Below, one piece after another: positions 8,067 through 61,124 of a stretch of 64,000 nucleotides of DNA. The stretch comes from Symbiodinium sp. CCMP2592. Lineage: Eukaryota; Sar; Dinophyceae; Suessiales; Symbiodiniaceae. The DNA lies in contig CAJNDT010000009.1 in assembly GCA_905221615.1 (NCBI GenBank), positions 213,020-277,019 on the forward strand, read 5' to 3'. Within the stretch, counting starts at the first letter, position 1, and each line of letters opens with the position of its first letter. Made by a program: the position numbers and the translations under genes. The notes under the pieces are model-generated. The model was not told the DNA's origin. It worked only from the letters and a program-made list of their open reading frames with translations, and did not search any database.

Positions 8067-8109
8067 GATGTGAGTTCTTGTTCTGGCAGCACAAGCCGAT
8101 GAGTAGATT

Positions 8110-8390
8110 CGTTATAGTGATGATGCTAGTAGGTCGGGGAGGTATGGGAGGTGGAGGTGGATTCGTTTTGTTCTTGTTGCTGGCGGTGGTGGTCGTGCGG
8201 CGGCGGTGGTAGTGGGAATGGTGGTGGTGGCGACGGTACTCGTGCTGCTGCCGGGGTGGTGGTGCTGGTCGTGCTCGCATAAGGACCATCAAACCAACAA
8301 AGAGTACTAACAACAACTAATGCCGTCGAACCACCGACTAGTCCAAAGCGGACACGGACAAGCTTACCACTGCTGCTGCTGCTGCTGCTC
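8110..8390. repeat. GGT-rich and CTG simple repeats
   Basis: About 8120-8275 is dominated by GGT, GGA and GGC triplets, and 8361-8388 is a CTG run. The minus-strand reading of the GGT tract is only His/Pro/Arg low complexity. The stretch from 8391 to about 9340 shows no family signature. Weak exon-like patches lie at about 8640-8770 and 8904-8967; the latter ends at a GTAAGC donor. Confidence 0.7.
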
Positions 8391-9343: not shown

Positions 9344-9770
9344 ATGGGCTGCACTGGTTCCACCCCAACACAGGGCAAGGCCGACCCAGCCATGAAAATT
9401 CTGGTGAGGAAGAGCCAGGAGGTCAAGGGTATCTTGCAGGTGGAGGATCGTCTCATCTTCGAGTGCGACGAGCCGCCGCTGTTCCAACACTACGATTCCT
9501 GGCGCCATGAGTTGGACAGCTATGACAGGCACGCGGTCGAAAATGGACATGGCATGCCAATCAACAAAACAGCTCATCTCCAGCTGGCAAAGGACATGAG
9601 GCACGCGGTTCTTGAGCTTCTCAGGGATCCTTCCGCGCTTGAGCATGCCGTTAGCTCCCGTCGCCAGCTCAAGGAGGAGATGACTTCTGTAGTATTCTCT
9701 GCCGCAGAGGGCAATCAGACCCGGGCCGACGGCCCGGAAGCACTACCACGGCCTTCGCAGAGAAAGACAG
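9344..9770 (+). CDS. First exon of a possible N-myristoylated protein
   Basis: The chosen start is the ATG at 9344 because it yields MGCTGSTP, which fits the MGxxxS/T rule for N-myristoylation, with Cys-3 available for palmitoylation. This would place the product at a membrane. The exon then reads as soluble charged protein (about residues 15-120) with helical segments such as LAKDMRHAVLELLRDPS, and ends in a Ser/Arg/Pro-rich stretch. A CAG|GTCAGT donor at 9771 fits an exon end after 142 codons, just before a run of hydrophobic residues and a stop that look intronic. I do not recognise the family. A possible later exon ends at an AAG|GTAAGT donor at 10054. Function unknown. Confidence 0.45.
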
Positions 9771-10756
9771 GTCAGTCCATCATCATTTCGACATGAGCCT
9801 TTCGGGTAGCTGTAGAGGCTGGGTTTGCTAGGCTTCTTCTCAAGGAAGGGGCCGAGCTTTTGGTATTTGTACGATCAAACGTGCGGGTCTATTCCCGACT
9901 TTCTGGCTTTCATGCCGCCCCTTTCCAAATCCCTTTATGTTCTCACGGTCCCCGCATCGAAAAGAAGAGTGGCCTCCTTGTAGAGCTTCGATTTTCAGGA
10001 GCCACATCTTTCAAAGGGCGGAAAGACCGTTCCAAAGGCAATGTGCTGCCAAGGTAAGTACCGGATGAATCTCGAGAGACATCTTCTGCAGCAAGCTGCA
10101 TAACTTCCATGACGTGTGGTGCGAGGCCATGCCCCTTGCAGGTCCTTCCATACGCTTCTCTTGATGGCGGATCTTTGATGCCATAAATATTGCCAGTTGA
10201 TTTTCCGATCGCGTTCGACAAATTTTGAACGACTGAGGCAACAATGCCGACTACTTCTGACCTATCTAGCAGCATCGTTCCCTTGATAGCCTTACCTTCG
10301 TCAGCGGTTTACTCGGCTGTTTTGCTTCCAAAGCGTGACTTCTAGGGTCCCGCCCTCCCTCTGCTTGCATGCGAGCCAGAGCAGCGTGATTCCGACATAT
10401 TCCGACAGCTGCAGCGTGCTGACAATGCAAAAAGCTTGCGTTGCAGATGTACCATCCGCACAGTGCTACATGCCAGCTTCTGTGGCACTTAGCAGAGACG
10501 TTTTCTTGCAGAATCAGACATGCAACACCACCAGAGAGCCATGTTGATTCTGCATTCCGCACGCAAAGAACTGTTTCCCCGTTGTGGCTCGCGTCAGGGG
10601 ACCCCCCTCTGGGATAGTCGAAGCAGTCAAGCTTTCGGCGAAGGCCCTCAAGATTGCAGAAGCCCCTCGCTCCCGAAGGAGCTTGCAGGGATCGTCGCAG
10701 CTTTCGATGCATGTGAGGAAGAGAGGCCGCCTGCTTTAGGGGCCTCGCTCTGCTGG

Positions 10757-10779
10757 CTCCCTCTCCCTCTCCCTCTTTG

Positions 10780-10833
<54 letters not shown>

Positions 10834-10847
10834 TCTCTCTCTCTCTC

Positions 10848-10884
<37 letters not shown>

Positions 10885-10890
10885 CTCTCC
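10757..10890. repeat. (CT)n microsatellite
   Basis: An almost uninterrupted CT dinucleotide repeat with a few CA or CG interruptions. It makes long Ser/Leu or Glu/Arg open frames on the two strands that are not genes. Confidence 0.95.
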
Positions 10891-11369
10891 ACCCACCCTT
10901 AACCTTAAACCGGTGTGCCTCCTGTCTCGAGGCCCAATCCGGGTCCAGAGGGCCGCTTGGCCAAGTCATCGGCACTGGAGTCGGCTTTGCTGTGACTTGG
11001 CTTGGAGCGTTGACGAGGTTCGGTATGGAAGCTTTCTCTCGTATTTCTTCTTCCTTGCTCATGTTGGTGAGCTTTGTGCAGAGAGGCATGAACTTCCAGT
11101 GGGGTTCACGACGTGCTTGCCTCGAGTTCTCTTTGCGATGTCAGGACATTTGGTGGGATCTATTTCGTTGAGGAGTGGCGGAAAGTCAAGAAGAAACTGA
11201 AGGCCTGCTTCAGCCTGCGGCATGCCCAATGTTGTAGTGGAGCTGACTCATGCCAGGCTAGAGGACTCCAGCATTCGAGTCTCGGAAGCACGAGAAGCAA
11301 GCGTCTTCACATACTGTGAGCTGTGCAGCCAGCCGGTTCGAGCGGCTGGCGAAGGAGCTCCAATGGAAT

Positions 11370-28270: not shown

Positions 28271-29800
28271 ATGCTTGTGCATTCAGGTGCTTGCACAATT
28301 ACACACGGCCAGATGACTGCAACAGCACCGCAAGCAGTAACACAGAATCGCCATCTCGGCATGCTGAGGCAGCTGAGGCCATGGTTTCCGCGTTGCGTCT
28401 GTTCGAAAAGCGGCACCTGGACGAGACAACTGCCTGCTTCATTGGTGTGCGTCACTTCTGCACGGAGCAGCCACTCAAGACCGCAGCAGGTACCAGGCAA
28501 TAAGCGCAACCGCGCGATGCAAAGGCCCAAAGAAAATTTCTATGCACAGACAGGTCGTACGGAGTCCCAGCTCCACTTCCTTATAGCTCCCGTGGACACT
28601 GCTGACGTGCCACGCGATCCAAAATACGCTCGATGGCGCGGCCGCCTGAAGAAGGCGAAAACTTCTGAATCCCTGTTGGAGATGCTCAATCTCGCTCGCG
28701 AACGTGATGAGGTTGATGGTAGTGTGATTGGTGCATCTATGCAGAAATGTGGTCATGGCCGATGGTGGTCTGCCTTGCTTCAGGTCGAAAAGCTGCAGCT
28801 GGAGAACTTTGTGCACCTTTCGATTGTTGAGCGTTCCATTTTCTTAAATGCGATTGCTTCGTGCCTCAAAGACACTGGCCTTTCTGAAAAAGCGCTTGTC
28901 GCTCGACAGGACGAAGCCTTGCAGAAGGGTAGGCGAACTTGGCAGAGCATGCCGGATGCTTCGAACGAGATAGAGTTCAACTGTGCCCTCGGGAGTGCCT
29001 GGAATCTATGTGCCTCTGCAGGGTCCGAGGCAGCTTGTGACTGGGCGACAATCTTGCACGAGTGGTCGTGCTCCCAACCGCATGCAAAAAACATTGTCAC
29101 CTATGCATCCTTCCTGACGTTGCTCGAGAGCCGTGGATACCAGGAGCGCGTGGACGAATTATTGGACAAGATGGTTCAGCAGGAAAAGCTGTCTTTGAAC
29201 GAGGTTCTTCTTGGCAGTCTTGTGAATGCAGCTGGCGGTGCTTTCGACTGGCAGCGTGCCGAGCGACTCTGGCAGATATTTGTGACCGAACATGGTGTGA
29301 GGCCCAACGTGATCTGCTACACGGCGCTTGCAAAAATCCACACCTTGTCCGGAAGACCCCGTGCTGCCCTTGAAAGCCTGAATGGTATGCTTAAGGCGGG
29401 AGTCGGGGCCAGCGATGCCCAAGCGGCCTTGTGCTACCTCCAGGTCTTTCTGATCTGTTGCCATTCTGAGCCAACAGAGTCAAGCCTCGCTCGACTCATG
29501 GAGAGCCTAACTTGGGGCGAGTCTACCATGGCTGCAGGCACAAGGCAGATACAAAAGGATTGGGAGCACCTGGCGGCCTTGGCTGAGCGGCTTTGCCGAG
29601 ACAAAAGCTCGCTGCAGTTCCACCAACTTCTTGTCCAAGAAAATGCCCGGAAGAGCAAGATGAAGGATTGGCAGAACTATCCAGCGGGCTCAAAGTACTT
29701 GCGCGACGTCCCCGAGCAAAAACATCTCATACGGGATCCGTTTTTCTTGCCGTTCGTCTGGTTGGCTCTCAGGACTTTAACTTATTGGGTTGCTACATGA
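28271..29800 (+). CDS. PPR-like helical repeat protein (large intron-free frame)
   Basis: A 509-codon open frame, exceptional for this part of the window. Residues about 270-400 carry helix-turn-helix repeats of PPR type: NIVTYASFLTLLESRGYQER, DELLDKMVQQEKLSLNEVLL, AERLWQIFVTEHGVRPNVIC and YTALAKIHTLSGRPRAALES. Each contains the V-x-T/C-Y-x-x-L signature near the start of helix A. PPR proteins bind organellar RNA through such helix pairs, and dinoflagellates have many, often intronless. The first 80 residues are low quality; true translation may begin at an internal Met near 28517 or after the GCAG at about 28492, in which case this is an internal exon. The last 20 residues (FFLPFVWLALRTLTYWVAT) may be read-through into an intron. 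S1 repeats on both sides, same strand, allow a PPR-S1 fusion (inference). Confidence 0.6.
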   Translation: MLVHSGACTITHGQMTATAPQAVTQNRHLGMLRQLRPWFPRCVCSKSGTWTRQLPASLVCVTSARSSHSRPQQVPGNKRNRAMQRPKENFYAQTGRTESQLHFLIAPVDTADVPRDPKYARWRGRLKKAKTSESLLEMLNLARERDEVDGSVIGASMQKCGHGRWWSALLQVEKLQLENFVHLSIVERSIFLNAIASCLKDTGLSEKALVARQDEALQKGRRTWQSMPDASNEIEFNCALGSAWNLCASAGSEAACDWATILHEWSCSQPHAKNIVTYASFLTLLESRGYQERVDELLDKMVQQEKLSLNEVLLGSLVNAAGGAFDWQRAERLWQIFVTEHGVRPNVICYTALAKIHTLSGRPRAALESLNGMLKAGVGASDAQAALCYLQVFLICCHSEPTESSLARLMESLTWGESTMAAGTRQIQKDWEHLAALAERLCRDKSSLQFHQLLVQENARKSKMKDWQNYPAGSKYLRDVPEQKHLIRDPFFLPFVWLALRTLTYWVAT

Positions 29801-35558: not shown

Positions 35559-35608
35559 TGGGGGGGGAGGGAGGGGGGAGGGGGGGGGAGGGGGGGGGAG
35601 GGGGGGGG
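35559..35608 (+). repeat. G-rich tract with G-quadruplex potential
   Basis: At least five runs of six or more G separated by single A or T residues. It lies about 260 nt upstream of the putative primer-binding site of the retroelement. Confidence 0.8.
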
Positions 35609-35862
35609 TGAAACCATAAACCTCTAAAGGGGTAGCTCTAACAGGTACCTACAGCAATGGCTGCATGCTCATACATATACATTCCGCTGCCCATTGGCTC
35701 ACAGTGGTTTTACCATATTGAGACAAGACAAGCTCTCCTTGCGTAGCAAGACAAAACAACTACTGTCCGTGTGCAGGGCGCTGCCCTTTGATCCTTAGGG
35801 AATAACTGGTCATACACCTCCTAACAAGGAGTATTCCTTGTGGGTGTATAGGCACAGTTTTC

Positions 35863-35876: not shown

Positions 35877-35958
35877 GGAAAGGGCCGCCCGCCTCACAAA
35901 GTCCGCTACAGCGGTCGGCCTCGCCGAACGCTTGACCAAGCGGATAAGAGGCAGCACA

Positions 35959-38331
35959 ATGTCGAGCTCGCATAGCGAAGCCGACGGCAGTTCCCAATCC
36001 TCCGGGGGATATGAGAACGAAGAGACCTCCCAAGGTCCAGCCACTTATGTCGCACAGTCATTTGCAACATCTGACCGCATGCTTGCATCATTAGGCATAA
36101 CGCCCAAGATCGCGCCTGCCTATGATGGCACCACTTCGTGGTTTGAGTATGAACAGTTGATTGACGACTGGTGCGACATAACAACGCTGGATGACACCAA
36201 AAGAGGTCCGTCTCTCAAGACGAGGCTCTCCGGATTGGCCGCAGTACAAAAAGAATCACTTAACCGAGAAAGGCTTGCAGCCCCAGATGGAGTAGATTAC
36301 TTCAAGAAGAAGATGCGTCCATTTTTCGTGAAAGGAGAACAGTACGTTTTCCTGTGGCGTTTCCTCGGCCTATTCAAGGCATGGAAGGGCAACCAAGACT
36401 TTGTGACTTGGATTGCTAAGTTTGAGATCGTGCTACAGCGCGTGAAAAACTCATGGATGGATCTCTTACCAGAGATAGCTCTGGAAGATGCCCATCCAGA
36501 TTTCATGCAAGCTGTGCAGGCAGACCGAACCTTCCTGGGCCTACAGGAAGCAGCCGAGAGAGACACATACGCCGCACGCTATTTCGAAACATGGAACAAG
36601 GAACGCCTTGATAATCATCGAAGAGCGTTTCCTCTGAATGATAATCTCCTAGCTCTTCTCTTCCTAGTGCAGTCCGACCTAAATGAGATGCAACGTGAGA
36701 GGTTGGTAACAGCATTGACCAACCAAGGTCACCGAATTGAGACCTATACGTACCCTGTGGTACGGCAGACCATGTTCGATCAGTTCTCAACGACCAGAAC
36801 TGGTCTGCAGGATCCCAACATTCGGCACTCTTCTCACAAGAAGGACCGCCATGGAAGGAGAGACCAACGCCGCAAACGCGGAGGTCGAAACTTCCTCATC
36901 CTCGATCAGGGTGAATACGACGGAGTCGATGGATTCTGGCTCCAAGACGAAGACACCCTTGAGGAAGGCTTTCTTGCCGCCGAGGATGAAGAAGCTGTCT
37001 TCTGGACAGTTGACGACCATGAAGCCTTCGTTGCAAGGAGATTCAAAAAGGGAAGAAGACCAAGAATGCGTCCCGGATCACCGGGAAGAGCAAAGGGTGG
37101 CAAGCGAAAAGGACGTGGCCGTTTTAGGTCATACCGCGGAAAAGGGAGAGCCAACCAGGCAGAACATGATCCAACTGATTCCAGCTATTTCGGTAAAGGT
37201 AAAGGAAAGGAAAAAGGAAAAGGTGGAAAAGGCAAAGGAAAAGGAAAGGACAAAGGAGATAAAGGAAGCTCCTTCAAGGGCTCAAAAGCAAAAGGCAAAG
37301 GTAAGGATACAGCTAAGTCTGCCTCCTTACAAGGAGACCAAACTGGATCTCCACAGGCCTATGAAAGTTCCACCGCACCGAGCTGGGATTCATGGTATGA
37401 GGACAGTTATTATACTGACTCCAGTTGGAATTATGCCGCTTATGACGATCAAACGTCTTATACATACTATGCATCACAAGCCTCAAGAAGAAAAACACGG
37501 AGAAAGAAGAGAAGAAATCAAGCAGGATCATCAGGTAGAGGCACAGATCCGAGCGCGCACCAAGAACCCGTGTTCAACTCATCAGTGAGTTACGTGCCCC
37601 AGGTCTCTGAACCATCCGAGGGGCAAGGTGTGGAGACTGCAACAGCAGTGTTTCCGTTGCAGCACACCGTCCTATCTGCTCTCACAGAGCGGATCAATCT
37701 TGATAAGAGCCCTACCTTTGTCATACTTGACTCTGGTTGTACTAGGGCTATGGGTTCCCGCTATGCGGTGAACAGGCTTATCAAGGCCGTGAAGCAACAT
37801 GCCCCAGGCATGATTGATTTCACTTTTTCACCTTCGAACACGAAGTTCTCTTTCGCAGATAGTGAAACAGCTCTTATCAAGGAGCGTGTAACTCTATGGT
37901 TCAACACAACTCCAAGAAGAGATACAACCATAGAAGTTTTGGATCAGGGGAGAGTCCCCATTTTGTTTTCCATCGAACAGATGAGGAATTTAAGAATGAC
38001 CCTCGAGTGTAGTCCCACAGCTGACCTAGCAACGTGTGAAGCTTTCGGTTTGTATAAAACCCCTCTTCCGATTAGTACCAATAACCATTTGGTATTGGAC
38101 CTTCTAGGCTTCACTTCCACCAGGAAGTATCTCCCTAAGTCAGGTACGTCGTTCAGTGCGACGGAGACTGCTCTAGGAGCCAAGAAGCCTTATACTAGGA
38201 TACCGGAAGGTCGCTGTCCAGCCTGTGCCGGACAGAAAAGGGCTCACACGTACCTCAAGGGTTGCGACAAAGCACCTGAGGGAGCAGCTGATCCACCACC
38301 GAAGAGGATTTCAGGTAAGAGAAGCCTCTGA
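35959..38331 (+). CDS. gag: Gag-protease polyprotein of the copia element
   Basis: The ATG at 35959 is the first in the frame (790 codons); the frame stays open a little further upstream with no ATG. Residues about 50-290 form a helical gag core beginning with AYDGTTSWFEYEQLIDDWCD. About 300-450 are charged and Gly/Lys-rich (KGKGKGK runs), likely replacing the CCHC knuckle in RNA binding. About 470-530 are rich in Tyr and Ser. The aspartic protease follows with FVILDSGCTRAMGS, catalytic D-S-G at residues 591-593. Near the end C753-x2-C756-x6-H763-x5-C769 could bind zinc. The stop at 38329 is only 10 nt after the pol frame opens, in the -1 frame. Gag packages the RNA and protease matures the polyprotein. 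The frame is intact, so this copy is young or recently active. Confidence 0.88.
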   Translation: MSSSHSEADGSSQSSGGYENEETSQGPATYVAQSFATSDRMLASLGITPKIAPAYDGTTSWFEYEQLIDDWCDITTLDDTKRGPSLKTRLSGLAAVQKESLNRERLAAPDGVDYFKKKMRPFFVKGEQYVFLWRFLGLFKAWKGNQDFVTWIAKFEIVLQRVKNSWMDLLPEIALEDAHPDFMQAVQADRTFLGLQEAAERDTYAARYFETWNKERLDNHRRAFPLNDNLLALLFLVQSDLNEMQRERLVTALTNQGHRIETYTYPVVRQTMFDQFSTTRTGLQDPNIRHSSHKKDRHGRRDQRRKRGGRNFLILDQGEYDGVDGFWLQDEDTLEEGFLAAEDEEAVFWTVDDHEAFVARRFKKGRRPRMRPGSPGRAKGGKRKGRGRFRSYRGKGRANQAEHDPTDSSYFGKGKGKEKGKGGKGKGKGKDKGDKGSSFKGSKAKGKGKDTAKSASLQGDQTGSPQAYESSTAPSWDSWYEDSYYTDSSWNYAAYDDQTSYTYYASQASRRKTRRKKRRNQAGSSGRGTDPSAHQEPVFNSSVSYVPQVSEPSEGQGVETATAVFPLQHTVLSALTERINLDKSPTFVILDSGCTRAMGSRYAVNRLIKAVKQHAPGMIDFTFSPSNTKFSFADSETALIKERVTLWFNTTPRRDTTIEVLDQGRVPILFSIEQMRNLRMTLECSPTADLATCEAFGLYKTPLPISTNNHLVLDLLGFTSTRKYLPKSGTSFSATETALGAKKPYTRIPEGRCPACAGQKRAHTYLKGCDKAPEGAADPPPKRISGKRSL

Positions 38332-41300
38332 TCCCGGATCCGGCAGAATCATCTGCCAAGAAACTTGATCCACCAGAACCATCTGGTGATGCTCCTGAGC
38401 CTTCCGGACCATCGGAACCATCATCAGGCTCTAGGGACAAACCTGCAGAATCCTCTGCACCACATGAACCTCCAGAAGAAGAAAGACTTGAGGTCCCACC
38501 TGCGAAGATAAAGACTCCAAAGGGTCTTAAAAACCTTCTGAAGAAATCCCGCAAATATGCGGTTAAACCTCCTGTTGAAGAGAAGTCTAAGGTCCCAGGA
38601 GCTGATGACGGGACGGAGGTAAGACCACTTGAGTCAAGAGAATACCCGGCTCCTGGTACAGACTCACCTACAGGTGAAGAGATTGTCGCAGAACCATCGC
38701 CATCTCTTCCCATTGCTCTTCGCAGGATTCATGAGAAGCTTAAGGACCCTGTAGAACTCTATAAGCTTCACCTTAAGCACCGTCATATGAGTACGGATCA
38801 GTTCAAGCGACGCACAAAAGCCTTACAGATCCCAAAGGAGATATACGAGCTATATGACCAACTGGTCAAAAAGTGTTCAGCCTGCCAGGAACATGTGAGA
38901 GCTCCTTCAAGAGCGAAGATTTCTGGTTTAAGATCAGAGACTTTCGGTGATCTCACCTTCGTAGATCACGGTGAGCTTCCAATTCCCGGCAAGGATAGTC
39001 GCTTAGTATTTCTTATTCTCTATGATGGAGCAACAAACTTGTTGACTGCCGAAGTAGTCCAGGATAAAGAAGAACATACTACAATGTCGATTATGAATGA
39101 CTACTTTGAGAAATTTCAGATCAACCCAAAGGTTGTAGTTGGAGATCAAGCATTCATGACTCCAAAAATGGAGGCTTATTACAATCGGCAGAATATCAAG
39201 CCTGTGGCAACAGGACCTGGAACACCATGGCCCAACAGGGCCGAAGCTGCTGTAAGATTGCTGAAGCATCAGATTAAGCTCATACTTCAGATCCTGAAGG
39301 ATGGTGACCCGCAGTATAACGGAATCACCATGAAGTATGGCAACCTCGTTCGCCAAGCATGTTTGGCAAGAAACTCTTCGATTACCTACGGAGGAGTTAC
39401 TCCTTTAGAAATGGCCTTTGGAAGGCGTCCTCGAGATGTTATAACACCAGAGAACGCTGATCCCAATCAGTTGACAGGTAATCCAACTGATACGGAAGTC
39501 ACTGCGAGAGCCATTAAGGAGCTTGCCAACAGGGCTTACCAAGAGGCACGCCAATCTGATGATCTGCGTAGAGATCTTGCAGCCAGACTGTCAATGACCC
39601 AAGGACCTTTCTCTTTGGGAGATAAGGTTTTCTACTGGTCAGAAGATAAGTCTAAGATTGGATCCACTGGGTCCAAACATGGATCTTGGCTAAAAGGAAA
39701 GGTGATCTCCGAACTCGGAGGATCCATGGTAGGTGTGGATCTTGGAACACGCATCGTCCGCGTCAATATCTCAAAACTGAGGAAAAATTATGACATAACA
39801 TCTGATGTGGAGATTCCTCTCGCGCCTGATGAGGAAACTCTGACGTCAGAAGGTTCTGACCACGCAAGTTGCATGGTCACCTTCGATGCTTCCCTGCAGT
39901 CGACAGACCTAACGGTTCCACATCAAGAGTGTCACTGGCAGGTCACCAGCACTGGGAAGATTGACTTCCTAGAACTCTACGGCGGATCTCCCCGCATGAG
40001 TCACAAAGCTGCCCTGTCAGGTCTGCGAGTAGGTCAGCCAGTCGATTTGCGTAGCGGTCTAGATCTTGAGCAACCGCAAGGTCGCTCCAATCTTCTTAGG
40101 ATCATCAAGGAACAAGAACCTACTATTATTGTTATGTCACCGGACCATTCTCAGTGGTCTAGCTGGTACTCACAGTGGAAGAAAGGCTCTGCCAAGAGAC
40201 TTTCTGTTTTAAAATTCTGTGAATCGGTCGCAGACCACCAAATGAAGCTCGGACGTTACTTTGTTCTTGAGAACCCATACTACAGCAGGCTCTGGTCTTC
40301 ACCAGAAGCAAAACGCCTGTTTTCTAACCATAAGATCAGCTATGAGGTCTGTAACCTACAAGCCTATGGCATGAAAGATCCAAAAGGATACTATGAATCG
40401 AAATCCTCGATTTTTATGCACAACCTGCCACCGCAAGTTTTAATTCCTCTCCAGAGGCATTCTGCCAAAACGAAATCTCCAACATCTCCACCAGGAGACG
40501 AAAAGGGTATTCAAGGCTACGGTCTTAAAACGAAACTCGCACAAGTGTATCCTTATGAATTCTGTGAGACCTTTGCCTCGTGTTTGGCAAGATTCCTGAA
40601 GCGAGATGCGTATGCATCTCATCTGTCTTTGGTCACAGACATACTAGAATACTCTGGAGATGAATGCCTCCAGGGACTTTCGGAACTTCTTGATCAGGAG
40701 TATTCACTTTTGACAACAAATCCTCTCAAGGATTCAAAACTCCTGCAAGATCCGAAAATCAGATCACTTGTTGCTAGAGTAAATTCCTTATCGAGTAAAA
40801 CTGAATTACCATTGCATCATTCCAAACCATCACCGTCCCTTGATGCCTTGGTGTCAGACATTACTCGCCTTAGATCAAGACTCTTACCAGGGTCTGGTTT
40901 CGAACAGTGTACTCTATACAGAGGTACATTTGGAACAGTCAAAGCACTCACCAGTGTAACTGATGGCGTTCTTGTCTTTTGGAACAAGAAGAAGCCCAAT
41001 TCGACTATGACGTGTTGCTTGCCGCACCAGGTTTCCTGGAACAAGGTACACCCATCAACCTTCTCGGGGGTGCTATTCCAGATGACAGGCGGCAAGACTT
41101 CACCGTCCGTGCGAACACCGCCGGATGTAATCATGTCGGACGAAGAGGTTTCGCCGTCAGACCCGTCAGAACCAATGAGCACTAATCGCTCACGGATCAC
41201 ATCTGACGATGTCTCTATGCCGGAACCAGATCAGCCGATGCCTCCCGGCACACCGCCGTCGCGTCCTCCTCCTCCCATACCTCCACCGCGACTACCGGCA

Positions 41301-43826
41301 GTTTCCTCCGATGAGCCCGTGGCTCCTGCTCGGGCTAAGCCTCGCGTGCATCCGCCTCCTCGCGTTCCGTCTCCTCGGCGTCTGGGGGGTGATGTGTCGC
41401 CAAGGTCTTCATCGGAAAGGAAAGTTTCGCCGCACAAACAGAAATCACCTTCACAGGTGCCGACACCAAAACCTAAACCGAAGGCACATCCACAGGGACC
41501 CATTCTTCCGTTACAACAAGATGAAGAAGACACTGAAGAAGAACTGGTCCCAGACGACCCCGGACAACCGTCCGCTCCTCCTCACACTTCTGGTTCACCA
41601 GAACCGGAGAGCGATGCCGAGTCAGAAAACACAAGGTATTACTCTGATGAGGAAGGTGACTTGGTCGTAGATGAGAAGGACTGGGTCCTTCTCACAGAAG
41701 AACAGAAACTGTGCAGTAACACAGGTTCTTTCTCCATGCCTCGGTACATGCATGGCGGACCCGTAGACATCAGAGAGGTAACATCAAGAGTGAGGTCAGA
41801 CCGAACACGGTATAAACCCACCAAAAGGTTCCGATCTGACATTCGTGAAGAGTACGATCTTCTCACGGAAGAGGACAAGGCCTTATCCCTAAGTTCCCCC
41901 AGGAACTCAGCGAATCTGACCCAGAAGGCACAACGGAAGGAGGCAACTGCCAAGGAAAAGCGTGAGATGAAGAAACAGTTTGATGAAGCGAAAGCAGCAG
42001 AATATCAGAGCTGGCTAGACAATGATGTCTTTGAGCTCGTCGATACACGGAAACTCGGAAACATCCGAAATTATGTCACTGGTCGATGGGTCCTGACTCT
42101 AAAAAGAGACAAGGACGGAAACTTCCTTAAGTGCAAGGCCCGATGGGTCCTGAGAGGTTTCCAGGATCGACAGAAGGACATTCAGCAAACTGATAGTCCT
42201 GCTGCGAGTCGCCCAGGTTTCCGCTTAGCGATTCAACTAGCAGCTAACAAGCTGTGGAATCTGACACACATCGACCTAAAGACTGCTTTCCTGCAGGGTG
42301 AAGCCTATGATGAGTCGAGAGACATAATCTGTCAGATTCCTCCTGAAGCAGGTTATCCTCCCTACATTGCAGCGAGGATGAAGAAACCCGCTTATGGACT
42401 TAACGATGCACCTCGAAGATGGTGGAACATCGTTGATAAGGCACTCCTGTCTTATGGCCTGGTGCCAACCCGTGCGGATCGCTGTACATATGTTCTGTAT
42501 GGTAAGAAGTCTGCAACAGCAGATGCTGAGCTCAAGAAGTCTCAGCCAAAGACCATGGAATCAGCGATTGACTATCTCCTAGATCCCATAGCAGGCAACA
42601 ATGCCAAGGGTAGACAGGTACATGGAGTAGTCTGTTTGCATGTAGATGACCTGTGCATGGCCGGTGATGACACCTTTCGTAAGGCCGTGATTGAATCGAT
42701 CAAAAAGGAGTTTGCAGTAGGTTCTGAAGACACGAATGATATCATGTTTGTAGGACAGAGATTAGTCTGGAAGGATGCTACAGCATCAGTGCCAGCACAT
42801 ATCTCAGTAAATCAGAACCTAGCTGTTGAAGCTCTAGAAGAAATTGTTTTTGATAAGAAGCTCAACAATGAGCAACAATGCACACCACAGCAGCACACTG
42901 CTTATAGAAGTGTTTTAGGACAGATCAACTGGCTACAAAGCCGGACTCAAGCTCACATCTGTTATCGCTTCAGTCGGTGTGCGAGCAAGGCTGCCAAGCC
43001 TACTATCGGTGATATTCGAGAATTGAACAAGCTTGTTAGGATTTTGAAGTCTACCGAAGTAGAATTGCGTTTTTGGCCGCTGAAAGGAAATCTCAGAATC
43101 CTCGGTTACCCTGATGCTTCCTACAGGAACAATGATGACAAATCATCTCAGAGAGCACATGTTATTTTCCTTGCTGAAGATCGAAATCCAAAGCTAAAGG
43201 GAATGAAACAATCAGCAGCAGCTGCTTCTTCCAAGAAGAACGATTTCTCTGAATCCTCTATTAAGGAAACATCCTCGAGAGGTAGCCTGGTGGATTATGA
43301 GTCTCACAAGATTACGACAACCACAATGTCCACAACAGTGGCAGAGCTTAACGCACTGATGCGTTGCTTTGGTACCTGCCTGTTCCTCAAGGGACTTTGG
43401 GCAGATCTCTCATCAGAGACCGTACCTATACATATCAGAACAGATGCGAACAATCTTGTGACAACAGCAGGCACGACACACCTTCCAGAGCAGAAGGAAA
43501 CTCACCATCTTATACAGATGCTTCGTAAGGAATCCAACTCTGGATCTTTAGATGACCTAGCTCATGTAAGCTCGAAGTACTGCCTAGCTGATGCATTAAC
43601 AAAGCATTCGGCGCAACCTGATGAGCTTATCAAGGCTCTGGAAACAGGAAATTTACCAGAAACAGACATTCATCCACCCTTCCGTGAACTTCTTCAACAT
43701 AAAGCTTTCACTGTTCGGTGGATCATAGACAACCTTAAGAATGCCGCTACAGCGGTAGCCTTCCTTGGAATTGATGTCTCAACAGAGATTTACCGATTAT
43801 TTTACTGCCAAGGAACATGGTGGTAG
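38319..43826 (+). CDS. pol: Pol: integrase, methyltransferase-like domain, RT and RNase H
   Basis: The frame opens after a TAA at 38316 and runs to TAG at 43824; the first ATG is at 38787, so expression probably needs a -1 shift from gag. Numbering is from that ATG. The HHCC zinc motif uses His at 38769/38778 and C30-x2-C33. The integrase core has D60, D120 and E153. Residues about 391-600 resemble a DNA-methyltransferase fold (FLELYGGSPRMS, SPDHSQWSSW, VLENPYYSRLW). A Pro-rich linker spans about 800-1010. Reverse transcriptase runs from GRWVLTLKRDKDGNFLKCKA, with the first Asp in HIDLKTAFLQG, to LHVDDLCMAGDD (42639-42668). RNase H carries GYPDASY, TVAELNALM, RTDANNL and ADALTKHS, so all four acidic residues are present. 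All catalytic residues of copia pol are intact. Confidence 0.92.
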   Translation, partial: EKPLIPDPAESSAKKLDPPEPSGDAPEPSGPSEPSSGSRDKPAESSAPHEPPEEERLEVPPAKIKTPKGLKNLLKKSRKYAVKPPVEEKSKVPGADDGTEVRPLESREYPAPGTDSPTGEEIVAEPSPSLPIALRRIHEKLKDPVELYKLHLKHRHMSTDQFKRRTKALQIPKEIYELYDQLVKKCSACQEHVRAPSRAKISGLRSETFGDLTFVDHGELPIPGKDSRLVFLILYDGATNLLTAEVVQDKEEHTTMSIMNDYFEKFQINPKVVVGDQAFMTPKMEAYYNRQNIKPVATGPGTPWPNRAEAAVRLLKHQIKLILQILKDGDPQYNGITMKYGNLVRQACLARNSSITYGGVTPLEMAFGRRPRDVITPENADPNQLTGNPTDTEVTARAIKELANRAYQEARQSDDLRRDLAARLSMTQGPFSLGDKVFYWSEDKSKIGSTGSKHGSWLKGKVISELGGSMVGVDLGTRIVRVNISKLRKNYDITSDVEIPLAPDEETLTSEGSDHASCMVTFDASLQSTDLTVPHQECHWQVTSTGKIDFLELYGGSPRMSHKAALSGLRVGQPVDLRSGLDLEQPQGRSNLLRIIKEQEPTIIVMSPDHSQWSSWYSQWKKGSAKRLSVLKFCESVADHQMKLGRYFVLENPYYSRLWSSPEAKRLFSNHKISYEVCNLQAYGMKDPKGYYESKSSIFMHNLPPQVLIPLQRHSAKTKSPTSPPGDEKGIQGYGLKTKLAQVYPYEFCETFASCLARFLKRDAYASHLSLVTDILEYSGDECLQGLSELLDQEYSLLTTNPLKDSKLLQDPKIRSLVARVNSLSSKTELPLHHSKPSPSLDALVSDITRLRSRLLPGSGFEQCTLYRGTFGTVKALTSVTDGVLVFWNKKKPNSTMTCCLPHQVSWNKVHPSTFSGVLFQMTGGKTSPSVRTPPDVIMSDEEVSPSDPSEPMSTNRSRITSDDVSMPEPDQPMPPGTPPSRPPPPIPPPRLPAVSSDEPVAPARAKPRVHPPPRVPSPRRLGGDVSPRSSSERKVSPHKQKSPSQVPTPKPKPKAHPQGPILPLQQDEEDTEEELVPDDPGQPSAPPHTSGSPEPESDAESENTRYYSDEEGDLVVDEKDWVLLTEEQKLCSNTGSFSMPRYMHGGPVDIREVTSRVRSDRTRYKPTKRFRSDIREEYDLLTEEDKALSLSSPRNSANLTQKAQRKEATAKEKREMKKQFDEAKAAEYQSWLDNDVFELVDTRKLGNIRNYVTGRWVLTLKRDKDGNFLKCKARWVLRGFQDRQKDIQQTDSPAASRPGFRLAIQLAANKLWNLTHIDLKTAFLQGEAYDESRDIICQIPPEAGYPPYIAARMKKPAYGLNDAPRRWWNIVDKALLSYGLVPTRADRCTYVLYGKKSATADAELKKSQPKTMESAIDYLLDPIAGNNAKGRQVHGVVCLHVDDLCMAGDDTFRKAVIESIKKEFAVGSEDTNDIMFVGQRLVWKDATASVPAHISVNQNLAVEALEEIVFDKKLNNEQQCTPQQHTAYRSVLGQINWLQSRTQAHICYRFSRCASKAAKPTIGDIRELNKLVRILKSTEVELRFWPLKGNLRILGYPDASYRNNDDKSSQRAHVIFLAEDRNPKLKGMKQSAAAASSKKNDFSESSIKETSSRGSLVDYESHKITTTTMSTTVAELNALMRCFGTCLFLKGLWADLSSETVPIHIRTDANNLVTTAGTTHLPEQKETHHLIQMLRKESNSGSLDDLAHVSSKYCLADALTKHSAQPDELIKALETGNLPETDIHPPFRELLQHKAFTVRWIIDNLKNAATAVAFLGIDVSTEIYRLFYCQGTWW

Positions 43827-44050: not shown

Positions 44051-46764
44051 ATGAGCACACGATCAAACTTCCGTAGCCGTGATGGACACGCCCTACCCAG
44101 GGCAGTACAGGCGTACCATGAGCGACATCCACACATGGATAGCTCGTACCCCGAGTCTCGTCGGGAAGCATCACGTCGACACACCGAACACGGTGGACAC
44201 CGATTTCACAAACGTGAGAAAAATCACGAGCCTCCATACATTTACATGGGTCACCAACAGGTGTTCAATCCGCATCCAAGAGATCTTGCTGAACTGATCT
44301 CACGATGTGGCCATGCGAGTCGAGCAAGGCTCACTCCAATCTCCAGACATGGAGTCAGGCTCTACGAAGGAGTCCTTCAAGGACCATGGGACAACAGTCC
44401 CCTTGTATACTGGGATAACAACGTGGGTAATCACGCTCGTGATCCACGCCAGTTTTGTACGATGCTTGCACATCACCTTCAGACAGGCCTCCCACCGGAG
44501 GTAAAACAATGTGTGAGTCTTGATGCATCCGGAGAATATGACTATTCCTCCTCAGTGCCAAGACTGGCAGAGGTAACAGGTCTCTCACCAGAGATGTGCT
44601 TCCACATTCTTTCCAAGACCAACAGAGTCGGAAGGTGGTTGGCACACTCAACAAGACACCTTCAGAACGATCGCCCTGATCTCTTTACTGGCCAACACAA
44701 TTATCTTCTGGACATGTTCAAGTTGGCCGATTCACAGCTCGCACAGTATACACCGCAAGAGATCGCGCTTGGTGTCCTCCTCAACACTAAGTCCAGGTTC
44801 GTGGTCACTATGGTTTATAACCAAGATGGCAAGGCCGAAACCACAGATGCCGCCGTTACCATCCCACCGGATGCAAATGTGCTGACCATGACCAAAGTTT
44901 TCCTCTCGGCAGTGGGAGGACACGGTTCACGACGAACTCTACCAAGAGTTGAAGAACCAGATCCTGAAGAAGAGAGGCCAAGGTCACACATGACCATCTC
45001 AGACTTCATGGCAACGGGCAGCAATCCAGTGCAGTCCCGTGCACAGCGTCTCTCCACTAACGCGCCGAGACCCGTAGGCATGGAGGATTTTGTTCGACAG
45101 AACAACCCTTGTTACATCATGCATGCCACGGACCTACAGGCATTATCCTCAATCCTGAGGCACGGTCTGGTACCATCAAACCTCCTATCGCAGGTGGTTA
45201 CATCACCAGGTCTTCAAGCTCTCGTGAATGAAAACAGTCGTTCCAACAGGGACACTGTTCAGTTTTCAACGCTAGACCTGGCGAATCCTAATCCGACCAT
45301 GTTGCGTGCCAACAAGGCACTGCTTCTAGTATTCGACGCAAATAACGTAGTGAACGAAGTCACAAACATGTGGCAGTCGCAAGCAGGGATGTTTGCTACA
45401 CCAGAGGTAGTGCATGCCCGTACTCTTAGCGCCGTATTCGCACCCTCTGAACCACTCTGGGTATCATCGCAATACGATGAGCTCAAGAGCATCGGACCAT
45501 GGTGGGCAGACCACTGCTCCGAACAGATGCCGTCAGCGACTTACGAGTCGAAGAAATGGTGCGCAAATTACGGCCAAGAGATCGAATCGACACTTCGGAA
45601 GGTGTCAAAGCGAAATCTGCCTCCAGAGCCTCCCAAGGCTAGATCTTCTCACAAGAAGTCTTTCTTTCTGCCAAATACAGAGGCTGACACAGCTCCAAAC
45701 CTGGAGCAAACCGCTTCTGCAGGTGAGGTACCTCCGAAAACGGAGACTACTACAAAGGACATCCATCCGAGATCCAAGCTCGCCCGGCAGGCCGAGGCAG
45801 ACAAGGATCCGGACAGTCTTATGGGACAGCTCTGGAACTCCGACGGCACCAGAAGCGCCACTGAAGTTCTTAAGATAACGACAGGTCACAAACCTCCAGA
45901 ACCTGTTCAGGATACTTCTGCCAACGTAGTTCCTCCCAAGGAAGAATCTTCTGGAACAGAGACGGAACCTGAGGAACCAGATCCTAACCAGGATTGTGAC
46001 GAAGAATCAGACGTTGAGTCGGCATCAAGCGAAAAGAAAAGAGCGAAAAGAGCTCAAAATCTTCGTCATCCTCAGAACTCCGAGTTGATGTTAATCCGTC
46101 TCACAAGACGAACTCTGCACCTGCAGCGTCAGAGGAGAAGAAAGAATCTCCCACGGAAGAGATCACAGAGAAACTTGAGAAGGTCAAACTTGACCAACCA
46201 AAGCCTGAAACAGAATATGTTCAGAGTTCAGACGAAGAGCCAAGGAAACCAAAATCTCCTAAAAAGGAGAAGGAAAAATTCCTAGTTCTCTTCGATCCTG
46301 AAACAGAAACTTATTATCGAGTCAACAGAAGCAAGCTCAACCTCGAATACGAGGAGCCTGCTGATGAGGAAGACCTCGTAAGAGAACATGAGCGCATCAG
46401 CGCTCGAATTCGAGAAAATCGCAAGCACCGAATCTCGAAGTCATCGTCTAACCCGGCTATGCAACAGGAAATGCAAGAGAGAATCTGGGTTAGTCGATGG
46501 AATCGAAAAATCCGAAGTCCACTCATGATCAAAGATTCTGAGGCTCCTGACGAAGAGGAGTGGGATAGACCCAGAGAGTCGGCATCTTCCTCCTCTGCAC
46601 CTCCTACCAGGGAGAGATTTGTAGGAGTACGCAGGACAGCTTTAGGGTTCCACTGGCTAGGTTGGGGAGTGCTTGACGGCGTGGGCGGGGTTGGCTTGTA
46701 TCCTGTCCGCGGTGGCATCGGGTACCAATACATTCTCGAGAGACGGGGCATGCCTCACTTCTGA
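44051..46764 (+). CDS. ORF3 with Tpt1/KptA-like ADP-ribosyltransferase domain (internal frame change)
   Basis: It starts at the ATG at 44051, 224 nt after pol. The first frame runs to 46285. Its last 85 or so residues turn abruptly from acidic to Arg/Gln-rich, while the -1 frame, open from 46018 to 46764, carries on the acidic Lys/Ser/Glu style and ends in a Gly-rich tail. A -1 shift or one-base indel near 46025-46060 (A-rich) is therefore likely. Residues about 345-475 resemble the catalytic lobe of Tpt1/KptA RNA 2'-phosphotransferase: CYIMHATDLQALSSILRHGL (His358 at the H-G-T position), then VQFST (403-407), then MLRANKALLLVFDANNVV (Arg419). Family enzymes remove a splice-junction 2'-phosphate using NAD+. 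The N-terminal part is not recognised; the C-terminal third is disordered. Such an ORF is not standard in copia. Function unproven. Confidence 0.68.
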
Positions 46765-55479: not shown

Positions 55480-56360
<881 letters not shown>

Positions 56361-56429
56361 GACGGTGACGACGACGACGCTCTATGTATAAACAGCATAT
56401 ATTTCATTCCGCGCCCACGCCTTCCTGTG

Positions 56430-57150
56430 CGGGAGAACCCCGTCCACGCCTCCACAGAGCGCGGACGAAGTTCGTCCACGCCCCGGACCCGCGGACGAAC
56501 CCCGTCCACACCCCGACACAGCGCGGACGGAGTCCGTCCGCGACCCCTGGGCCCACGCCCCGACAGAGCGCGGACGGAGTCCGTCCACGCCACGGGCCCG
56601 CGGACGAACCCCGTCCACGCCCCGACAGAGCGGGGACGGAGTCCGTCCACGCGCCCTGGGTTCGCGGACGAACCCCGCCCTTGACAGAGCGGGGACGGAG
56701 TCCGTCCACGCCCCTGGGCCCGCGGACGAACCCCGTCCACGCCCCGACAGAGCGCGGACGGAGTCCGTCCACGCCCCTGGGCCCGCGGACGAACCCCGTC
56801 CACGCCCCGACAGAGCGCGGACGGAGTCCGTCCACGCCCCTGGGCCCGCGGACGAACCCCGTCCACCCCCCGACAGAGCGCGGACGGAGTCCGTCCACGC
56901 CCCTGGGCCCGCGGGCGAACCCCGTCCACGCCCCGACAGAGCGTGGACGGAGGGTCCGTCCACGCCCTGGGCCCGCGGACGAACCCCGTCCACGGTCCAC
57001 CCAGAACCCCTGGACCCGTGGACCACACCCCGACAGGGTGTGGACGGAGTCCGTCCACGCCCCTGGGCCGCGGACAAACCCCGTCCACGGTCCACCCAGA
57101 ACCCGCACCCGCGGACGAACCCCGTCCCCCGACAGAGCGTGGACTAGGAC
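56430..57150. repeat. 63-bp GC-rich minisatellite
   Basis: About ten imperfect copies of a 63-bp unit, each containing CGGACGAACCCCGTCCACG and GCGGACGGAGTCCGTCC. The unit length is a multiple of three and lacks stops in most frames, so long open frames appear on both strands without implying a gene. Each unit can fold a GGACGG-AGT-CCGTCC hairpin. Decayed copies extend to about 57340. Confidence 0.92.
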
Positions 57151-57179
57151 TAGGATCCACGCCCCACGGGACAGGTGCA

Positions 57180-57247
57180 AAAGGTGCAAAAATTTATGAT
57201 GCGCGCGCGCGCGCGCGCGCGCGCGCATCATAAATTTTTGCACCTTT
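57180..57247. repeat. 68-bp perfect palindrome with (GC)13 centre
   Basis: AAAGGTGCAAAAATTTATGAT and its exact reverse complement flank 26 nt of alternating GC. It interrupts the decaying end of the minisatellite. The alternating GC centre could adopt Z-DNA and the whole a cruciform. Confidence 0.95.
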
Positions 57248-57394
57248 CGCAGGTCTGAAAACCGACCTCATGAACCCGACCGATTCCGTCCACGCCAGCA
57301 CTCGCGAACAAACCCCGTCCACGTCGGACGGCTTCGTCCACCACAAGAAACACACACAAAAATAGAATTGATGCATAGCGGCAGCACCGACAAC

Positions 57395-57615
57395 AGCACC
57401 ACCGCCAACAACAACAACAACAACAACAACAGGCGTACCCAAAACGGAGCCACGAGAAGAGAGACCACAACAACAACAACAACAGGCGTTCCCAAAACGG
57501 AGCCACGAGAAGAGAGACCACAACAGCAGCAACAACAACAACAACAACAGGCGTTCCCAAAACGTAGCCACGAGAAGAGAGACCACAACAGCAGCAACAA
57601 CAACAACAACACATT
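57395..57615. repeat. (AAC)n with a triplicated 52-66-nt unit
   Basis: Three copies of a unit starting GGCGTTCCCAAAACGGAGCC (57431, 57483 and 57549), each ending in an AAC/AGC run of variable length. Confidence 0.88.
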
Positions 57616-58829: not shown

Positions 58830-61124
58830 ATGCCGCCATCAAAAGTATTTTGGATTGGTTGGTTCGCAGGCTTGTTTCAAGCTGTGTCACGTAGAATAGA
58901 TGCAGTATGGATCAGCATGGACGAGGTCAAAGACGAGGTCCATGAGCATGAGGTGCCGAGGGGCCGCGACAGCCCCCCAACTAGGAGGCTGCGCGTGAAA
59001 ACGCCTCCCAAGAGCTACAAGAAAGAAAAGGCCACAGCTGTGAAGAGTGCAGCCAAACCGGCTGCGCCTGCTAGCTCAGCAGAAGCTTCTGTTACAAACT
59101 GGAGCCCGGCTCACCAGGCGAATGCGGTCAAGCTGCTGTTCTCCTGGCCCAGACGTATGTGGGACGCCTTTGTGCAGTTTCGTCGCAGCGTGAAAGATGC
59201 TGAAGGACGGGACCAGGCTCACTTTGAGGCTGCCGGTGCTGTCGTGAGAGCAAGCAAGCGCCAGAGAACCGAGTGGAACTCGGATGGTGTTTGCGAGACA
59301 ACGCCGGCAAGCTCTCGAGCAGAGCAGAACCAGGAAGAGCGCACCGCGATCTTGCAAGGTATGCTTGGCGTTTTGTCCGAGTTCACAATGAGCACAAGCT
59401 TCAGCGGTATAGATGCCCCAACAACAGCCTTCCTGTCGCTGGGCTTGGGTTTGTGCCAGAGCTTGGATTTGAGCGCGGACCATTTGCCGCGCCCGCGGAG
59501 CACCTTTGCAGTCGAGTGGCAAGCTTCTTGCCAGCAAGAACTTTTGCGTCACCCTCATGCCGCAGAGCATGTGTTCGGGGACATCAACGATTTCTTCCAG
59601 CCAACCCTCCGGACCAAGCTTGACAGCATTGTGGCCGAAGGGAAGATCCACTCAGTCTTGTGGCCATTGATCAAGTCTGGCAATGCCATGCGGAAGGAGG
59701 CTTTTTGCGTGAAGCACCAGAAGATGTGTCAGGCAGGGGCGGGTGCTGTGTAAGTGTAGGTTGGCATATAGCGGTCATATCTCATTGTTCGTAGGTCTTG
59801 CGCTGTAGGGTGATTCCACTTGTGCGTTGGCTGGCAGCAGCGCCGTGCCTCTGCCACGGTATGCTTGTGCAGGTCGACACGGCTCGATGCCACTGCGGGG
59901 GCACGCCGTGCACGGATTATTCGATCAGAGGGCTGCAGCTCGGAACCGAGGGAACAACGTTCGTTCCCTTCTTAGCCTTCTGCGGCATGAGAATTGTCTT
60001 GCAAGAGCCAGTTGTGATACAGGAGAATGTAGACAACTTCGAAACGGATCTGCTTGAGCGCTACCTCGGGCATCTGTATCACATCTCAGTAGAATCTTTG
60101 TCGCCCGACCAGTACGGCTTCCCGGTCCTAAGGCCAAGGAAATGGACGATTCTGAGGCACAAGTATAAAACATCATGCTGGGCATCGCCGTGGTCAGCCT
60201 TTGCGAAGATGTTTCAGAGTGACATGTGGTTCGGAGCGTATGCAAGCAACATTTTTCATGACGTTCCTGCTTGGGTTGTGTATTTTGATGCTGACGCAGA
60301 CGAGTTGTTCGAGGAGCTGTGCTGGGCATGCAGCCGTCCCGAAAGCTTGTCGAAAGATTCAGGGTGCCCTTTTGCTTCAGCAGTCGAGCTGAGAGAGGCC
60401 ATGCTCAAGGACCCAGAAGCTGTTCGTTCCGCTTTCCTTGCAGCTTTGACAGCAGCCGAAAGCAGCTTCTTGGATCACTACCAGGCGAGTCGACCTGGCC
60501 AAGTCTTTGCACTGAACCAGAATCCCGAAGTGAGCTTGACGGCAAGCCAGCAGACACATCTGCGCACCATCATCCGCAACACCGGCATTCTTTGGCGCCC
60601 TGCCAGCAGTAATCTTGCGATTGTCTTGTGGCGGGGGTAGAGGGGACCGGGTAGTCACGCAAACAAGCCCAAAGTGTGGAGAACAGCCATTCCCCGCCCC
60701 ACCCCTAGCTGACACTCATGATGATCGCTTTTGGTTCGCGGTTTGTGGGTTAGGGGAGGTGGGAGAGAGTCGAGGGCAGAAGGGACAGGGCAGATCTGAA
60801 ACCGAAAGCTTTAACTCAATGCAGCTAATCCGATGTCCCAGGTCCGACCGCCACGGGCGGTGGATGACAGCTTCTGAAACCTTGCGAGCTCAGGCTTTTC
60901 CTGTTTCGGTTGAGTTGAGTGATGGGGTCCCTTTGTGTAGTTTTGCTTGCTCTGGAAGTACTGGGTCCGGACGCACAGCCCGGACCGCACAAGCAGGAAA
61001 CAGCATGCATTGTATGATTGCGGCCATTGCAGTGCTGTACGCCGCTGCAGAAGTCAAGCTTCAGAGGCCACGGAGTCTCTCTTCATCACTGTTTAATCTT
61101 GCGGCGCGGCTACGAGCAGGATGA
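58830..61124 (+). CDS. Cytosine-5 DNA methyltransferase-like protein (three exons)
   Basis: Family enzymes move a methyl group from AdoMet to C5 of cytosine. Exon 1 (58830-59732) has a charged, Lys/Pro-rich N-terminus, then motif I FSGIDAPTTAFLSLG (Phe191), FAVEWQASCQQEL and FGDINDF. Exon 2 begins at 59873 after TGTGCAG; joining it to CAG|GCAGGG (GC donor, 140-nt intron) keeps the frame: HQKMCQ-VDTARCHCGGTPC. Motif IV is GGTPCTDYS, catalytic Cys at 59909-59911; motif VI is IQENVDNF; motif VIII is YGFPVLRPRKW. Exon 3, probably from 60825 after AATGCAG, has motif IX WMTASETLRAQAFPV and motif X AGNSMHCMIAA, ending TGA 61122. The exon 2/3 junction is not exact. Start ATG 58830 is the first that gives a protein-like N-terminus. 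All key residues are present, so it is probably active. It may act on DNA or, less likely, RNA. Confidence 0.78.

Follow-up and report, generated by a model that had tools for sequence, protein, structure and literature searches.

What is encoded by the third open reading frame (ORF3) of a copia-type retrotransposon of the dinoflagellate Symbiodinium sp. CCMP2592? The window analyzed here is the whole 64,000-nucleotide stretch at positions 213,020 to 277,019 (forward strand) of contig CAJNDT010000009.1, and an earlier note on it had proposed that ORF3 carries a fold like that of the NAD+-dependent RNA phosphotransferase Tpt1/KptA at 45080..45480. Tpt1/KptA is widespread, and its purpose outside tRNA splicing is often unclear. 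We conclude, with a probability of about 0.62, that ORF3 of this copia-type family holds a strongly diverged Tpt1/KptA-like domain, made up of an NAD-binding ADP-ribosyltransferase (ART) lobe that probably follows a diverged winged-helix RNA lobe, and that this domain may be enzymatically active. The parts of ORF3 discussed below are as follows:

44051..46285, + strand: ORF3, 744 amino acids, collinear with the 2304-amino-acid ORF3 of copy L019 to about residue 662-666, after which the frame is lost
44615..44923, + strand: putative Tpt1 RNA-lobe region, residues 189-291, with R202 and H203, K247, R249 and LSAVGGH (placed by MAFFT auto and L-INS-i, in agreement with hmmsearch)
44951..45085, + strand: linker, residues 301-345, almost invariant in amino acids between copies
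45071..45412, + strand: Tpt1/KptA-like NAD (ART) lobe, residues 341-454, with H358, T360, R400 and R419

Similarity of the ORF3 NAD lobe to Tpt1/KptA

The strings on which the earlier note relied are all present in the order it gave, in a single + strand frame of ORF3 and within 45080..45480: CYIMHATDLQALSSILRHGL is residues 354-373 (45110-45169), VQFST is residues 403-407 (part of SNRDTVQFST, 398-407), MLRANKALLLVFDANNVV is residues 417-434 and SQAGMFATPEVV is residues 443-454. Is the resemblance statistically meaningful? In Pfam, PF01885 (PTS_2-RNA, Tpt1/KptA) was the only match listed for the window ORF3 (E 0.014, residues 344-450, below the gathering cut-off), and it was the top match for ORF3 as a 520-amino-acid piece (E 0.0056) and for copies L019 (E 0.00089, residues 225-480), L017 (0.00063) and L016 (0.015); at E up to 10 it was matched by four of the seven members of alignment A3. 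A Tpt1 hidden Markov model (HMM) was built from 29 canonical sequences, of which viral contigs supplied 18, plasmid records 5, this genome 5 and a bacterial genome 1. It gave window residues 120-485 a score of 21.5 bits, while the best of 2000 shuffles reached 4.8, and it gave the ORF3 relative P0003 19.1 bits. The NAD lobe alone scored 22.7 bits in the window and 23.8 bits in P0003, with 0 of 2000 shuffles as high for each. Profile-profile comparison of ORF3 with the 29 Tpt1 sequences by hhalign gave a probability of 94.7% and a score of 57.5; the best of 200 column shuffles scored 27.0 and the reversed alignment 13.6. ORF3 ranks first among the 578 open frames of at least 60 amino acids in the window, at 18.9 bits vs 4.5 for the runner-up. 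Could ORF3 nonetheless be unrelated to ART enzymes and resemble them by chance? Its individual Pfam scores are weak and its structure model is poor (below), but with no sequence or profile shuffle as high as the real scores, so wide a margin over the next frame and a high-scoring NAD lobe in a relative only about 56% identical (P0003), chance is a very improbable explanation.

Several results weigh against the assignment. No ORF3 sequence exceeds the PF01885 gathering cut-off of 26 bits (scores are 15.1-20.3 bits), and canonical Tpt1 copies in the same genome score 137-176 bits against this family. In P0003 PF01885 (E 0.025) ranked second behind an unrelated family, and P0004 had no PF01885 match at E 1 in the Pfam search and 11.2 bits (E 0.25) with the 29-sequence HMM. 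A six-sequence Tpt1 profile lowered the hhalign probability to 26%, the reverse search (ORF3 NAD-lobe profile vs the 29 canonical Tpt1 sequences) gave at best 9.6 bits, and PDB sequence searches gave no match to Tpt1. Motifs are also reduced, HVHLS to TVQFS and ENGVWLT to QAGMFAT, and where Tpt1 has IRAxQGH, ORF3 has LSAVGGH (residues 285-291). Because the Pfam scores lie under the cut-off, we call ORF3 Tpt1-like and do not file it as a PF01885 member. Other ART families (e.g. DarT) gave no match; a 256-amino-acid ORF3 piece listed PF01885, DUF7002 and DUF4732 only, to E 10, in a listing from which HMMER filters drop most matches above 0.1. Taken together, the profile scores relative to shuffles bear out the earlier note and make homology of the NAD lobe to Tpt1/KptA well supported, though remote; the ART fold itself is a prediction from sequence.

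Conservation of the predicted NAD-contact residues

When aligned with 12 canonical Tpt1 NAD lobes, the ORF3 lobe has one 22-residue insertion, is otherwise nearly gapless and is 16-25% identical to them. The aligned pairs (ORF3/Tpt1) are IMHATD/LYHGT, GL/GL, RDTVQFS/RkHVHLS, LRANKALLLVFDANNV/GkRhGkpvvLevdA and MWQSQAGMFATPEVV/kFYqsENGVwLTdhV. In the N-G-x-F-type turn of the earlier note A replaces N (QAGMF vs ENGVW). The numbering of His358 and Arg419 proved correct, and with T360 and R400 they fall on His101 (H358), Thr103 (T360), Arg121 (R400) and Arg139 (R419) of CthTpt1, an equivalence that is our own matching of the text of PMC6333775 to the motifs. According to that paper, the adenosine ribose is held by His101 and Thr103 and the NAD phosphates by Arg121 and Arg139, with Arg121 also completing an essential Arg-His-Arg-Arg tetrad (PMC6333775); for human TRPT1 it is reported that changing the tetrad to alanine leaves the enzyme unable to ADP-ribosylate 5'-phosphate RNA (PMC6582358). 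The NAD-contact equivalents of His101, Thr103 and Arg139 are present in ORF3 as H358, T360 and R419.

Conservation was read in 28 rows, 25 of them distinct because three genomic places are doubled (the window copy, the C2248 copy and one C2469 copy); 20 genomic copies and P0005 are mutually close, and P0001-P0004 (50-56% identity) are more independent. H358, T360, R202, H203 and R249 are kept in 25 of 25 distinct sequences, and among those that cover the positions R400 is kept in 24 of 24 and R419 in 23 of 23. K247 is kept in 24 of 25, with Q in P0003.

Selection on ORF3

Is ORF3 maintained by selection? The values of omega (ratio of nonsynonymous to synonymous change) given here come from simple pairwise comparisons in which the same copies recur in different pairs. 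For whole ORF3 in five pairs of uninterrupted copies omega was 0.26, 0.25, 0.30, 0.13 and 0.51, the last from a pair with only 8 synonymous changes. NAD-lobe omega was 0.42, 0.25, 0.16 and 0.09 in four of those five pairs, the fifth being without changes there, and 0.15-0.25 in four further pairs (overall 0.09-0.42 in the eight of nine pairs with changes). The putative RNA-lobe region (residues 131-300) gave 0.29-0.47 in nine pairs. The linker (residues 301-345) is a strongly constrained stretch, with omega of 0.00-0.03 in the eight of nine pairs that have synonymous changes there and at most one amino-acid change per pair. On these estimates ORF3 is under purifying selection, or retains a recent memory of such selection in a multiplying family. 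Separately, copies L019 and L063 show a synonymous divergence of 0.27-0.42 over residues 1590-1900 of ORF3 (the ORF at L019:450-7361) vs 0.05-0.18 in the other measured regions, as after recombination between subfamilies.

These data bear on a serious rival explanation, namely that the domain is Tpt1-derived but catalytically dead, a structural relic whose part in a large ORF3 polyprotein is now to bind RNA or NAD. The degraded IRAxQGH, HVHLS and NGVwLT motifs and the scores below the Pfam cut-off are what such a relic might show, but the NAD His/Thr/Arg residues (and the tetrad, if its register is correct) are unchanged wherever the 25 distinct sequences cover them, and the low NAD-lobe omega also speaks for a maintained site; we judge a dead module to be unlikely.

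A putative RNA lobe upstream of the NAD lobe

Canonical Tpt1 has an RNA lobe before its NAD lobe; does ORF3? Two MAFFT modes, auto and L-INS-i, aligned GRWLAHSTRHLQ to SKFLSYVLRHKP and LLNTKSRFVV to the NDKkRFel wing, a register that puts R202, H203, K247 and R249 on Tpt1 R18, H19, K66 and R68. The Tpt1 HMM independently chose the same register for residues 217-253, and its RNA-lobe half alone did so for the RH pair as well. R202, H203, R249 and R400 would then align to Tpt1 R18, H19, R68 and R121, and they are invariant where covered; R400 belongs to the firmly aligned NAD lobe, and R202, H203 and R249 rest on the weak RNA-lobe alignment, for which one of three MAFFT modes differs at R18/H19. 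We gave up a register matched by eye that set LRH under LQT (143-145), since MAFFT auto, MAFFT L-INS-i and the HMM all point to an RNA lobe at about 194-253, in which TRH is the counterpart of LRH.

The placement is not unanimous. E-INS-i moves the first helix to residues 134-142, a position without a counterpart of R18, and sets LRH over A140-H141-H142, where the arginine is absent. Shuffles as high as the RNA-lobe HMM score numbered 3 of 2000 for the window, 29 of 2000 for P0003 and 103 of 2000 for P0004, and by hhalign the RNA lobe was not significant (14.4, with all 8 listed of 100 shuffles higher). An AlphaFold model of residues 1-520 from six sequences was poor, with a mean predicted local distance difference test score (pLDDT) of 37 and 23-31 in the NAD lobe. 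Block means rose to 56-68 at residues 151-200 and 231-260, and the helix and strand order in the model at 180-287 is compatible with a Tpt1 RNA lobe and so supports one weakly at best. An RNA lobe with the remaining tetrad members R202, H203 and R249 is, in sum, a weakly supported prediction.

Since the firm homology lies in the NAD lobe only, a second serious rival is that ORF3 encodes an ADP-ribosyltransferase whose target has become a host protein or nucleic acid, for counter-defence or interference with silencing, and is not the element's RNA. The residues with which Tpt1 contacts RNA phosphates appear to be kept, albeit in the weakly aligned part, and this counts against a retargeted enzyme, which we likewise judge to be unlikely.

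The element that carries ORF3

The earlier note placed ORF3 in a copia element. The parts of this element in the window are:

35609..35857, + strand: 5' long terminal repeat (LTR), about 249 bp, TGAAACC...GCACAG, inserted in a poly-G tract; 99.6% match to an LTR of the C2248 copy
35932..38331, + strand: gag-side part of the gag-pol region, with no Pfam match
38787..43826, + strand: pol ORF, with an integrase-like stretch at 38958-39227 (weak) and then a copia-type reverse transcriptase at 42021-42500
46640..46640, + strand: end of the window copy's match to the C2248 element, at position 11027 of 15907

Within pol, RVT_2 matched residues 1079-1238 (E=3.4e-17, over the cut-off) and rve matched residues 58-147 weakly (E=0.022, below the cut-off), so the integrase-like stretch lies upstream of an RVT_2-type reverse transcriptase, the order of Ty1/copia. 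The window ORF3 starts 227 nt downstream of pol. The window copy corresponds to bases 1 to 11027 of the C2248 element at 99.6% and keeps only the 5' LTR; its ORF3 is broken, decayed and 3'-truncated. The C2248 element itself is 15.9 kb long and bounded by 249-bp LTRs that are 99.6% alike, with ORF3 between pol and the 3' LTR. Both copies have gag and pol in two separate frames, and in one C2469 copy they form a single 2652-amino-acid frame. The C2248 insertion has poly-G on both sides, so that a target-site duplication is indistinguishable; both insertions examined (window 35579-35608 and the C2248 flanks) are in poly-G tracts, perhaps a target preference.

The family is not confined to this locus. 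The 1.098-Gb assembly (GCA_905221615.1) gave 3446 first-look candidates for ORF3, of which the 60 scored are 89-100% identical, and the open frame that holds ORF3 is 2318 amino acids long in 16 of these 60 and 2321 in 3. A 401-base NAD-lobe stretch yielded 735 candidates, and 32 of the 40 scored, including the window, are identical. In all nine copies whose surroundings were read, copia pol precedes ORF3 on the same strand at a distance of 226-228 nt (227 nt in L016 and L017); the placement in a copia element is borne out, and occurrence of ORF3 at this locus only is excluded. Other records contain relatives at 50-56% identity, P0003 being 52-56% identical; by eye, the sequence before its ATG is similar to the spacer between pol and ORF3 in L063, an indication that P0003 has the same layout. 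Two Symbiodinium sp. CCMP2592 proteins match parts of ORF3 at 93% and 96% identity, and no ORF3 relatives were found in viral contigs.

Might ORF3 be a host gene that merely lies beside the element? P0005, a gene model of Symbiodinium sp. CCMP2592 named BSL3, joins pol and ORF3 parts to a PF00149 protein, as could be cited in favor of this; it is already refuted, as ORF3 is flanked by pol and the 3' LTR in the C2248 copy with its two LTRs and comes after pol in nine of nine contexts. The P0005 and P0006 gene models both fuse pol/ORF3 pieces to another protein, likely by mis-annotation.

Canonical Tpt1 in other retroelements of the genome

The earlier note overlooked the possible partial RNA lobe, the broken state of the window copy, and canonical Tpt1 in elements of the long interspersed nuclear element (LINE) type in the same genome. 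A genome search with PF01885 had 1550 candidates, and the 150 that were scored gave 152 matches. Each of the 150 listed rows exceeds the cut-off, and about 85 of these, by our count, are in a 665-amino-acid open frame. One representative was read in each of three groups, as follows. In C890 (L029, G000:C890:325000-334999) the 665-amino-acid ORF holds a full Tpt1 (E 8.5e-40), and the adjoining 1572-amino-acid ORF has a weak endonuclease match (E 0.008) and RVT_1 (E 4.8e-22). In C2857 (L031 and L064) Tpt1 (E 2.4e-45) and endonuclease PF03372 (E 2.3e-10) share one 1501-amino-acid frame, with RVT_1 (E 2.7e-21) in the next. In C1360 (L035 and L065) Tpt1 (E 4.0e-38) is in a 757-amino-acid frame, with endonuclease (E 1.2e-5) and RVT_1 (E 1.3e-18) downstream. 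These LINE-borne copies carry the tetrad motifs. The Tpt1 copy on C4512 may be the host gene.

C890 has some further peculiarities. Its 665-amino-acid ORF (L029:663-1956, - strand) includes a weak PARP-like stretch as a second ART-like region (PF00644, E 2.6e-4, or 0.12 after Tpt1 removal), a ubiquitin carboxyl-terminal hydrolase domain (PF00443, E 3.3e-8) closes its reverse transcriptase ORF (L029:4095-8810, - strand), and three Tpt1 copies lie 10,106 bases apart, in the manner of a tandem array.

In a midpoint-rooted tree of canonical Tpt1 (22 of 29 rows; 7 near-duplicate phage rows were omitted, and ORF3 was left out as too diverged), the five in-genome rows form one clade (100/98) apart from the bacterial, archaeal and phage rows. 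The branches are long, so the number of captures is not countable.

Other features of ORF3 and the window

In full ORF3 a B-box-like zinc finger match (residues 876-903, E 2.6e-4) is below the cut-off, and the Pfam search gave no convincing match besides this and the Tpt1-like region. By eye there is a candidate hydrophobic stretch at residues 1731-1751. An endonuclease/exonuclease/phosphatase-like motif series seen by eye at about residues 1072-1504 was rejected: it had no such Pfam match and no PDB match, and a three-sequence LINE endonuclease HMM scored it -1.9 and -1.7, with 141 and 146 of 1000 shuffles as high.

Elsewhere in the window, an ORF at 59798-60640 weakly matches C-5 cytosine DNA methylase, under the cut-off (PF00145, E 8e-4), and is perhaps a piece of a methyltransferase-bearing retroelement like those of PMC5890265. 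A block of overlapping repeats occupies 55841-57611, and GC and AT skew are strong in the 56-58 kb bin. A 509-amino-acid ORF at 28271-29800 has weak pentatricopeptide-repeat matches (E 0.001, below the cut-off).

Discussion

How does ORF3 compare with known systems? Its NAD lobe follows the Tpt1/KptA order HxT - GL - R..V.(F/L)S - R - hhhD - S..G...T (CthTpt1, PMC6333775), with the NAD-contact His/Thr/Arg at aligned positions and, in the favored register, the tetrad. It differs from Tpt1/KptA in the 22-residue insertion, the degraded motifs, a longer linker between the lobes and the context of a 2304-amino-acid ORF. The C890, C2857 and C1360 elements are likewise retroelements bearing a Tpt1 with tetrad motifs, but theirs is over the PF01885 cut-off and stands beside, before or fused to non-LTR endonuclease/RVT_1 frames, whereas ORF3 is the third ORF of an LTR element. 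Like Ty1/copia, this element has LTRs and an integrase before the reverse transcriptase; unlike it, it is 15.9 kb long and has an extra ORF of about 2304 amino acids after pol.

Symbiodinium retrotransposons with DNA methyltransferases, SymbioLINE-Dnmt and SymbioDIRS-Dnmt3, are known (PMC5890265). They too are dinoflagellate retroelements that acquired and amplified a nucleic-acid modifying enzyme, but the enzyme is a different one and the elements are LINE and DIRS, not copia. KptA domains have been described in jumbo phages, sawfly nucleopolyhedrovirus, Bodo saltans mimivirus and Beihai picorna-like virus (PMC9503650); these are selfish elements with a KptA-type ART, but they are viruses, and the words 'retrotransposon' and 'retroelement' are absent from the main text of that paper. 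PF01885 is listed in PMC4053983 as a gene family, not within an element. We found no report of a retroelement-borne Tpt1/KptA in the literature searched, which covers few subscription papers and leaves novelty unproven. A retroelement with a captured nucleic-acid enzyme is of a known kind; an enzyme of the Tpt1 type there is unexpected.

What might the ORF3 domain do? If it is catalytically active, NAD+ would be bound through H358, T360, R400 and R419, and the R202-H203-R249-R400 tetrad would act on RNA phosphates of the element's own transcript. It could remove 2'-phosphates from the element RNA or its primer so that reverse transcriptase can pass (that the enzyme stops at a 2'-phosphate is our assumption), or it could cap or protect 5'-phosphate ends with ADP-ribose. 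We infer that the most likely role of ORF3 is to process 2'- or 5'-phosphates of the element's RNA in an NAD-dependent manner. A broader proposal, which we put forward only tentatively, is that Tpt1 is a recurrent retroelement tool in this dinoflagellate lineage, canonical in at least three LINE-type groups and diverged in copia, because NAD-dependent handling of RNA 2'-/5'-phosphates helps retrotransposition.

Retroelements that carry and multiply Tpt1 with its NAD-site residues kept suggest a selectable role on RNA that awaits reverse transcription, and the LINE and copia domains make the long-standing question of the role of Tpt1/KptA testable. To the DNA methyltransferases of Symbiodinium retroelements (PMC5890265) they add an enzyme of RNA-phosphate/ADP-ribose type. 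The key residues kept in ORF3 suggest that the copia family may itself handle RNA ends or RNA phosphates.

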